From a virus, in IMG/VR virus record IMGVR_UViG_3300050136_000123, positions 1-24,213 of that record: DNA of 24,213 bases; one strand, given 5' to 3'. Below are positions 7,045 through 9,248 of the stretch, in pieces. The position numbers and the translations under genes are program-made. Below the pieces are notes generated by a model, which saw only the letters and a program-made list of their open reading frames with translations, ran no database searches and was not told where the DNA came from. Position 1 is the stretch's first letter; every line of letters begins with the position of its first letter.

Positions 7045-8487
7045 ATGGCAACGCCTGGCGCAAGTTCACGATCCAAAACCGGATATGTCGCCGAGAGCAC
7101 GATCGGGACAATCCCGACGTCGCCGGCGATCAAGAATTTGCGGGTGACGAGCTCGCAGCTTGCTTACACGCCGTCGCGCACCACCTCGAATGAAATCCGC
7201 GCCGATCGGCAAATCCCGGCGCAAATCCTCACCAAGCTCGAGGCCGGCGGCAACGTCGGTTTGGAATTGTCGTTTTCCGCCTATGACGACATGATCCAAG
7301 CGGCGGCGCAGGGCGCTTGGGTGAACAATCCCTCGGCGAGCGTGACGGCGTTGACTACGACCACGATGACGGTCGGATCGGGAACGCCGTTCAAGACGGG
7401 AATGCTGGTGCTGACGTCAGGCTTTGCGACGGCGGCGAACAACGGCCTGTTCGTTGTTGCGTCGTCCGGATCGACGTCGGTGGTGTTTGCTTCGTCCACC
7501 TTCACCGCGGAAGCGTCACCTCCTGCCGCCGCCATGGTGCGGGTGATAGGTTTCCAGGGAGCATCTGGCGATATCACCGCAACGGCGACGGGGCTTGCTT
7601 CGACCACGCTCGACTTTACCACGCTCGGCCTCAACATCGGCCAATGGCTCAAGATTGGCGGCGATGCTTCGGCGATGCAATTCGCCACGGCGGCATGCAA
7701 CGGCTGGGCGCGGCTCAGCGCGATTGCGGCGCATGCTCTGACGTTTTTCATCCTGCCGGCCGGTTTTACCACAGACGCCGGAACCAGCAAGACCATCGAG
7801 GTGTTCGGCGGCGACTTTCTCACCAACGGCACGACGGTGCAGACCTTCACCTTCGAGCGCCAGCAGCAGGATTTGGCGTCACCGTCTTACGAATACTTCA
7901 CCGGGATGCAGGTCAACACGCTATCGCTCGCGGTCAAGGCGAGTGCGGTTCTCACCGGCACGCTCGGCATGACGGGCATGGGGGCAAGTGCCACGACCAC
8001 GCGCGCCTCCGGCGCGTCCGATGTCGCCGCGCCGACCTATGGCGTTCTCAACGCATCCTCCAATGTCGGCGAGATTTTTGAGAACGGCCTCGCCGTCGGC
8101 GGTCCGTCCTATGTCAGCGAGATCGGGCTCGATATCAAAAACAATCTCTCGACGCAGTTCGCGGTCGGTTCGATTTCGCCAATTGGCGTGCTCTCTGGCG
8201 AGTTCGAAGTCTCCGGCACACTGGTGGCCTATTTCGGCGACCTGACGTTGCTCAACCAGGTGCTTAACGACAATGACGTGTCGCTGATGTTCCGCGGCGG
8301 CCGTCCGGACGGCAACCGCGAAAGCTACGTCTTCGACGTGCCGAGCATGAAAGTGTCCGGCACTTCTCCGGTCGACGCCAAAAACCAGAGCCGCATGTTC
8401 AACGGCACCTTCGCCGGCAAGGTGAATTCGGTGCTCGGCTATACGCTCTCGGTCGGGCGCTTCTGGTATCTGCCGGTCGCCGATTAG
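7045..8487 (+). CDS. Major tail tube protein
   Basis: A 480-residue protein starting at ATG 7045 with AAGGAACG upstream. The opening reads SKTGYVAESTIGTIPTSPAIKNLRVTSSQLAYTP, then TSNEIRADRQIPAQI and VGLELSFSAYDDMIQAAAQGAW. This is the hallmark of the Phage_tube_2-type tail tube family ('T-s-n-E-i-r-s-D-R-q' followed by 'f-s-y-x-x-y-D-x-h'). The protein is longer than minimal tube proteins (about 150-250 residues) and probably carries one or more inserted beta-domains in residues 90-270, possibly displayed on the outside of the tail. The C-terminal part (FDVPSMKVSGTSPVDAKNQ) returns to the tube fold. It forms the non-contractile tail tube through which DNA passes. Confidence 0.85.
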   Translation: MATPGASSRSKTGYVAESTIGTIPTSPAIKNLRVTSSQLAYTPSRTTSNEIRADRQIPAQILTKLEAGGNVGLELSFSAYDDMIQAAAQGAWVNNPSASVTALTTTTMTVGSGTPFKTGMLVLTSGFATAANNGLFVVASSGSTSVVFASSTFTAEASPPAAAMVRVIGFQGASGDITATATGLASTTLDFTTLGLNIGQWLKIGGDASAMQFATAACNGWARLSAIAAHALTFFILPAGFTTDAGTSKTIEVFGGDFLTNGTTVQTFTFERQQQDLASPSYEYFTGMQVNTLSLAVKASAVLTGTLGMTGMGASATTTRASGASDVAAPTYGVLNASSNVGEIFENGLAVGGPSYVSEIGLDIKNNLSTQFAVGSISPIGVLSGEFEVSGTLVAYFGDLTLLNQVLNDNDVSLMFRGGRPDGNRESYVFDVPSMKVSGTSPVDAKNQSRMFNGTFAGKVNSVLGYTLSVGRFWYLPVAD

Positions 8488-8526: not shown

Positions 8527-8925
8527 GTGAAGCTATCGGATATTCGCGTGGACGTTGCAGCCATCGAGGCTGGAGATTGGGTCGAAGACCTTCCCTTTGA
8601 AGGCCTAGACGGCGTTCGCTTGAACGTCCGTGGCACCGGCAACGCCGATTACAAGCGGCTGCACTCGAAGCTGTTCCGCGACGCTGGGACAAGGCGCTTC
8701 GACGCCGACAAGGTCGCGGTCGAATTGCTCCACCGGACCGTATTGCTCGGCTGGGACGGCATCTTCGAGGAAGATGAGAAGACGCCGCTCGCGTTCAACT
8801 CGGAGCTGGCGTTGAAGCTGTTATCGGATCCGTCGCTTCCTGCCTTTCGTGCGGCAGTGTCTTATGCCGGCAATCTGGTAGCGAGCAGGCGTAAGGAGCC
8901 AGCGGAGCAAGCCGAAAAAAACTGA
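8527..8925 (+). CDS. Tail assembly chaperone, first frame (gpG-like)
   Basis: A 132-residue protein with a GTG start at 8527 preceded by AGGAG at 8515-8519. It sits between tube and tape measure genes, where lambda-like phages code their G and G-T chaperones. The sequence (DLPFEGLDGVRLNVRGTGNADYKRLHSKL and LLHRTVLLGWDGIFEEDEKTP) is typical of this class, in which a small alpha-beta protein ends in charged helices. Just before its TGA stop the gene reads A AAA AAC, a -1 slippery heptamer, so a minority of ribosomes should slip into the following frame. The chaperone binds the tape measure protein during tail assembly and is not expected in the finished virion. Confidence 0.82.
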   Translation: MKLSDIRVDVAAIEAGDWVEDLPFEGLDGVRLNVRGTGNADYKRLHSKLFRDAGTRRFDADKVAVELLHRTVLLGWDGIFEEDEKTPLAFNSELALKLLSDPSLPAFRAAVSYAGNLVASRRKEPAEQAEKN

Positions 8926-8961
8926 CGGCGCGGGTCGAATGGGATTTGGAATTCGGCCCGC
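8916..8961 (+). promoter_or_regulatory. Programmed -1 ribosomal frameshift signal
   Basis: Bases 8916-8922 are A AAA AAC in the correct phase (zero-frame codons AAA at 8917 and AAC at 8920), directly followed by TGA at 8923. Seven bases later, 8930-8940 pairs with 8951-8961 to give an 11-bp GC-rich stem with one G-U pair and a 10-base loop. Heptamer, spacer and stem meet all the usual requirements for -1 frameshifting. The downstream -1 frame is open from 8895 (stop at 8892-8894) to 9248, so the overlap window is only about 30 bases and the heptamer lies inside it. The loop bases 8941-8946 could also pair with 9005-9010 to form a pseudoknot; this is speculative. Confidence 0.85.
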
Positions 8962-9248
8962 ACGCAAAGTGGCTGGCGCAAGCCGCGCTCGATCGCGGCG
9001 ATGCAATCCCCGAAGATGCGATCGCGCCTGACCTTCCGGCTGAGTTAACTTTCGCTTACGCGGCGTTCTGTGCGCTGGACGGCGACCGTGAGGCCGGGTT
9101 TGGCATCGGGCCGATCCGTTTCACCGCGATTGACGCCTATGCGCGGCGCTACCGCATCATCGGCCTTGATGATTTTGATCAGTTTGCAGCCGACGTTCGT
9201 CTGATTGACCGCATCTATCTCGACGCGTCCAAAAAATCGACCGAATAG
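8922..9248 (+). CDS. Tail assembly chaperone, -1 frameshift extension (gpGT-like)
   Basis: This frame has no ATG and no ribosome site; the only nearby candidate start is a TTG at 8946. Its continuation from the slippery site at 8916-8922 gives LTARVEWDLEFGPHAKWLAQ at the junction, joined after the first 132 residues for a predicted fusion of about 240 residues. The T-like part adds about 108 residues, with a DLPAELTFAYAAFCALDGDRE stretch and a C-terminal helix (FDQFAADVRLIDRIYLDA). In lambda the fused gpGT links the tape measure to tail tube subunits, and the same is inferred here. Independent translation from TTG is possible but less likely. Confidence 0.75.
   Translation: MTARVEWDLEFGPHAKWLAQAALDRGDAIPEDAIAPDLPAELTFAYAAFCALDGDREAGFGIGPIRFTAIDAYARRYRIIGLDDFDQFAADVRLIDRIYLDASKKSTE

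Follow-up and report, generated by a model that had tools for sequence, protein, structure and literature searches.

A very probable G/GT-type signal for programmed -1 ribosomal frameshifting in the tail assembly chaperone gene of a phage

We have examined a 24,213-nucleotide stretch of viral DNA (IMG/VR record IMGVR_UViG_3300050136_000123, positions 1 to 24,213; hereafter the window) and conclude that its tail assembly chaperone gene very probably contains a G/GT-type signal for programmed -1 ribosomal frameshifting (Table 1). This reading had been put forward in a first-pass annotation made from the sequence by itself, and it is now supported by the domain families of the two halves, by a heptamer conserved at 100 of 100 junctions, by compensatory changes in the downstream stem and by a localised structure signal. 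The sequence elements, their conservation, the stem compensation and the continuity of the protein over the junction are all direct observations.

Slip site, reading frames and gene products

The 3' end of the first ORF reads GCC GAA AAA AAC TGA, which sets A_AAA_AAC in phase with the upstream frame (codons A8916, AAA8917-8919, AAC8920-8922 and TGA8923-8925). A TAA at 8892-8894 closes the -1 frame, which is then open from 8895 to its stop at 9246-9248; the two frames overlap in the -1 direction across 8895-8925 with the heptamer inside. The elements that the first-pass annotation had listed (the phase of the heptamer, the adjoining stop, the 7-base spacer, the 11-bp stem and the opening of the -1 frame at 8895) were all recovered from the sequence. 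AAAAAAC occurs once in the window, both strands counted, against about 1.1 expected; for this single copy, in-phase placement within the ~30-nt overlap would arise by chance on the order of 1e-4. Stems of at least 11 bp are not rare in the GC-rich window (12 seen versus about 6 expected). Because the heptamer count is at chance level and such stems are not rare, the anatomy alone is suggestive, and it is phase, position and the comparison with relatives that carry the argument.

Table 1. Coordinates of the predicted frameshift signal, its products and the flanking genes in the window
Feature	Position	Strand	Basis or remark
Tail tube protein gene, upstream neighbour	7045..8487	+	PF18906 Phage_tube_2, E 1e-39
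G-like tail assembly chaperone ORF, 132 aa, predicted normal product	8527..8925	+	GTG start, AGGAG upstream; phrog_313
GGAG, 8 nt 5' of heptamer; possible Shine-Dalgarno-like stimulator, tentative	8904..8907	+	
Slippery heptamer A_AAA_AAC	8916..8922	+	In phase; A_AAA_AAC or G_GGA_AAC at 100/100 distinct junctions
Predicted -1 extension with the T-like domain (108 aa), translated from C8922 once the ribosome has slipped	8922..9248	+	PF23812
0-frame TGA stop, adjoining heptamer	8923..8925	+	Immediate stop at 71/100 junctions
7-nt heptamer-stem spacer	8923..8929	+	Best stems of relatives start mostly at +6 to +9
5' arm of 11-bp stem	8930..8940	+	Two compensatory pairs in L003
10-nt hairpin loop	8941..8950	+	RNA folding
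TTG, sole in-frame start of -1 ORF; thought unused	8946..8948	+	Absent from L010, L011, L016 and L121
3' arm of 11-bp stem	8951..8961	+	RNA folding, pairing in relatives
Probable tape measure gene, downstream neighbour, 901 aa	9255..11960	+	Weak phrog_9483 match, E 0.0026; position

The two halves fall in tail chaperone families and are continuous as one protein. For the first ORF the match is phrog_313 'Tail assembly chaperone' (E 9.9e-14) and for the -1 frame PF23812 Phage_TAC_18 (E 2.6e-13, well over the cut-off), while the 240-aa fusion matches phrog_8233 unbroken through the junction (residues 60-238, E 6.3e-24), scoring 85.9 bits versus 24.9 and 44.4 for the separate halves. The overlapping frames lie between the tail tube gene and the probable tape measure gene, and a tail terminator gene is also among the neighbours. 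AlphaFold models reach a pLDDT of 83.8 for the first ORF and 87.4 for the T-like domain, whose helix begins at residue 2. Neither predicted domain had a significant match when searched against solved structures, and thus we make no fold-level claim; the public record of phage Siara cites, as its own annotation, an HHpred match to 2OB9 for the first half.

We infer that slippage occurs as follows. Most ribosomes would translate 8527-8925 and stop at the TGA, releasing the 132-aa G-like chaperone. A minority would be paused by the hairpin with AAA in the P site and AAC in the A site, slip back one base on A_AAA_AAC and continue with CTG ACG GCG, yielding the 240-aa G-T fusion. If the roles follow those in lambda, the G portion may act as a coat on the tape measure protein, while the T portion may bring in the tail tube protein. 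The predicted junction reads AEKN-LTARVEW after tandem slippage or AEKK-LTARVEW after P-site-only slippage, so that the junction peptide first suggested for detection, AEK followed at once by LTARVEW, was one residue short (it lacks the Asn or Lys incorporated at the point of slippage). Trypsin would leave only NLTAR (or LTAR) as a junction fragment of the predicted fusion, with KEPAEQAEKNLTAR as the missed-cleavage form. Upstream of the heptamer, a Shine-Dalgarno-like element shows a weak synonymous-level signal in the family (mean z about -0.4), which is mostly accounted for by the encoded amino acids, and a stimulator role for GGAG stays tentative.

Conservation of the junction and its downstream hairpin

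We assembled 100 distinct homologous junctions, the window included, from phage records, IMG/VR contigs and one prophage-like plasmid locus. All carry an in-phase heptamer, divided between A_AAA_AAC (50) and G_GGA_AAC (50) with no others; as the search accepted any X_XXA_AAN or X_XXU_UUN within 30 nt, the AAC-only outcome was not forced. AAC persists in L017 to L019, where the following -1 codon specifies a residue other than Leu, so a requirement for Leu is not the sole reason for keeping the C. The 0-frame stop adjoins the heptamer at 71 of the 100 and otherwise lies 1, 4 or 13 codons on. The distance of 13 codons is that of a YuA-like group (L021 JM2, L022 MW2 and L039 YuA), which shows that an immediate stop is common and not essential. 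Homology in the -1 frame begins at the slip site in nearly all junctions.

The closest relative, L003, is 61% identical in the first half and 70% in the second, followed by L010, L011, L016 and L121. The second domain is present in hundreds of phage-record entries. No DNA-level similarity to phage records was found, and a scan of bacterial genome contigs with either half found no relatives. Joined CDSs are annotated in the RcSimone, RcRudolph, RcThunderbird, Loki, KL1 and Siara records. In Achromobacter phage JWT (L029, 625-1143), the annotation misses the -1 frame and a reverse-strand CDS covers it, and the record of phage YuA lists no CDS over the -1 frame and marks a promoter inside it. The same junction, here GGGAAAC TAA, recurs in a prophage-like tail module on Azospirillum brasilense plasmid p4 (L038), where the record lists its halves as two separate hypothetical proteins.

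A second group of IMG/VR contigs (L120, L122, L124-L127, L129, L132 and L133) shares the same AAAAAACTGA junction and the LxARxxW start, and continues into a short second domain of another kind (about 80-98 aa in complete copies) that gave no Pfam or PHROG match among the members scanned. Several members have a perfect covarying hairpin, CGCGCxTCG/CGAxGCGCG, and L129 matches phrog_313 in its first half.

The arms of the window's predicted stem, GCGGGTCGAAT and ATTCGGCCCGC, form 11 contiguous pairs, one of them G-U. The RNA fold of 8923-8970 has an energy of -21.5 kcal/mol (z -3.3), which none of 200 shuffles equalled; a longer fold, 8923-9020, keeps the same hairpin in its minimum-energy structure, at an energy ordinary for its composition (z -0.7). 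Relatives had been named at the outset as a check on the heptamer and stem, and that comparison did not refute the proposal: no junction has lost the heptamer, and the stem shows compensatory changes. The window and L003 differ at four positions in the 32-nt hairpin, which together make up two compensatory pairs and nothing else, each a change from G-C to A-U; those in the 5' arm alter the -1 protein and those in the 3' arm are silent. Among six close relatives, pairing is kept in 90.9% of stem cells, versus 23-52% in slid registers, and two stem pairs vary on both sides, a result matched by 11 of 500 shuffles. The stem is weakened in one close relative, L010, where 3 of 11 pairs are broken and the synonymous-shuffle test gives no folding signal.

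For that test, synonymous codons were permuted within the -1 frame and folding just 3' of the heptamer was compared. Folding proved stronger than in the shuffles across 99 loci (mean z -1.9) and across 38 representatives below 60% identity (mean z -1.6, t -6.5), statistics that are non-independent and overstate independence, since the tested loci share kinship; the signal fades past about +48. Pairing in distant members is mostly one codon out of register (arm offsets sum to 44 versus 47). Family-wide covariation is 0.220 versus 0.139 in shuffles and also exceeds all slid versions, and part of the family has weak stems only. Thus, on these comparisons, the predicted hairpin is a family feature whose exact pairs drift. 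With a stem 7 nt 3' of the heptamer, where about 5-8 nt is expected of such sites, and evolutionary support for it, the site belongs with stem-loop-stimulated signals. Additionally, relatives show a second, weaker structure signal at +61 to +96 past the heptamer (mean z -0.85, t -3.4; 38 representatives), which is absent from the window at the matching offset (8983-9018). An Rfam search of the region gave no credible match.

A more elaborate proposal, made in the first-pass annotation, is that frameshifting is stimulated by a pseudoknot and highly efficient; we consider this improbable. The complementarity on which it was built does exist, in that the loop bases GGGATT (8941-8946) can pair with all six bases of AATCCC (9005-9010) and L003 could form six such pairs, one of them G-U. 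However, it is neither above chance nor conserved: synonymous shuffles do equally well in 41 of 300 cases for the window and 177 of 300 for L003, the six-pair match is missing in L010, L011 and L121 and lost in most relatives, and there is no family-wide pseudoknot signal (mean z 0.28). The 3' partner also codes for a conserved Ile-Pro, a further point against the proposal.

Slippage efficiency and competing readings

The forecast of high efficiency fares no better. It drew on a likeness to dnaX, but the dnaX heptamer is A_AAA_AAG (PMC5009743) and the one here ends in AAC, which sets it apart from dnaX-like high-efficiency sites with cognate A-site re-pairing. A_AAA_AAC is named a low-efficiency heptamer in E. 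coli (PMC4066793), and A_AAA_AAG is much shiftier than A_AAA_AAC in that species (PMC5009743). As A_AAA_AAC is a poor slip motif in E. coli, a low yield is the better forecast, in agreement with the lambda product ratio of about 30:1 (PMC5009743), and slippage here is probably inefficient.

Synthesis of the downstream domain as a separate gene, from TTG 8946 by re-initiation or coupling after TGA 8923, is very unlikely, even though that codon sits 21 nt past the stop and begins a 100-aa ORF, and several public records give the halves as separate CDSs. It is the only start codon in the -1 ORF and has no good ribosome binding site. A start there would drop eight residues that belong to the conserved LTARxxW segment and to a confidently predicted helix and, because the second domain starts with that helix, would cut a folded element. 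In L010, L011, L016 and L121, the earliest -1-frame start codon lies at residue 38-57, so that the full domain in these relatives needs a frame change. Restart at TTG 8946 was rejected for the lost residues and for these four relatives, and two separate genes would leave the conservation of the heptamer at every junction unexplained.

Transcriptional slippage, in which RNA polymerase would add one A on the seven-A run at 8915-8921, is more doubtful still. Seven As do precede the C, and an added A would give the same reading frame; however, G_GGA_AAC, with only three As, serves half of the family (50 of 100), which leaves polymerase slippage unsupported, and a hairpin 6-9 nt 3' and in-phase placement suit ribosomal slippage. 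We therefore rejected it. Adjacent ORFs sharing one protein family can also look like the outcome of a sequencing error, a frameshift mutation or gene decay, but the relatives already refute this, as the frame relation and heptamer are constant at 100 distinct junctions and the stem shows compensatory changes.

Within the favoured reading, a programmed ribosomal frameshift, the AAC-only usage across the family is the one mildly surprising point: AAG-type heptamers, the most efficient in E. coli, occur at none of the 100 junctions. AAC-only heptamers, motifs that by measurement give poor slippage on bacterial ribosomes, the usual adjoining stop and the covarying hairpin could together constitute a distinct, deliberately low-output design, in which the stop and hairpin, and not A-site re-pairing, set the dose; we offer this as a possible but rather unlikely account.

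These results set a likely gene model for the phage, with products of 132 and 240 aa from one start, and extend it to many records that give the halves separately or miss the second. They also supply family-scale evidence of hairpin selection. Neither hairpin covariation nor the AAC-only rule was found published for this family in open-licence papers. The AAC-only rule raises a testable question, namely how so many phages manage with a motif that performs poorly in E. coli.

Relation to known frameshift systems

The lambda heptamer is G_GGA_AAG, versus AAC here. Lambda G/GT (Levin 1993; Xu, Hendrix and Duda 2004, as cited in PMC5009743) and the present site are alike in arrangement: each has a -1 shift near the end of the first chaperone frame, a site between the tail tube and tape measure genes and a long product with an extra C-terminal domain. 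Frameshifting is demonstrated in lambda, whereas here it is predicted. The E. coli dnaX site is similar in its A-rich heptamer, downstream stem-loop and possible upstream Shine-Dalgarno-like element, and differs in its much shiftier A_AAA_AAG (PMC5009743), its product and its purpose.

The arrangement itself is already known. G/GT frameshifting has been recognised for a long time and is conserved across a wide range of long-tailed phages (PMC5009743), and the same arrangement has been published for relatives. In Acinetobacter phage vB_AbaS_Loki gp12/gp13, AAAAAAC adjoins the stop codon and a -1 frame fusion is proposed and annotated (PMC5313236, 2017), although its protein sequence is distant and its stem and host are different. 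For Burkholderia phage KL1, a GGGAAAC abutting the TGA and a predicted stem-loop have been reported (PMC3483164, 2012), and we confirmed this slip site in record JF939047. Like the window, KL1 has its chaperone pair (gp18/gp19) between the tail tube and tape measure genes, its heptamer directly before the TGA of the first ORF and a predicted stem-loop, and its joined CDS is annotated. Unlike the window, it uses G_GGA_AAC, carries an additional tail completion gene ahead of the one for the tape measure protein and has a Burkholderia host.
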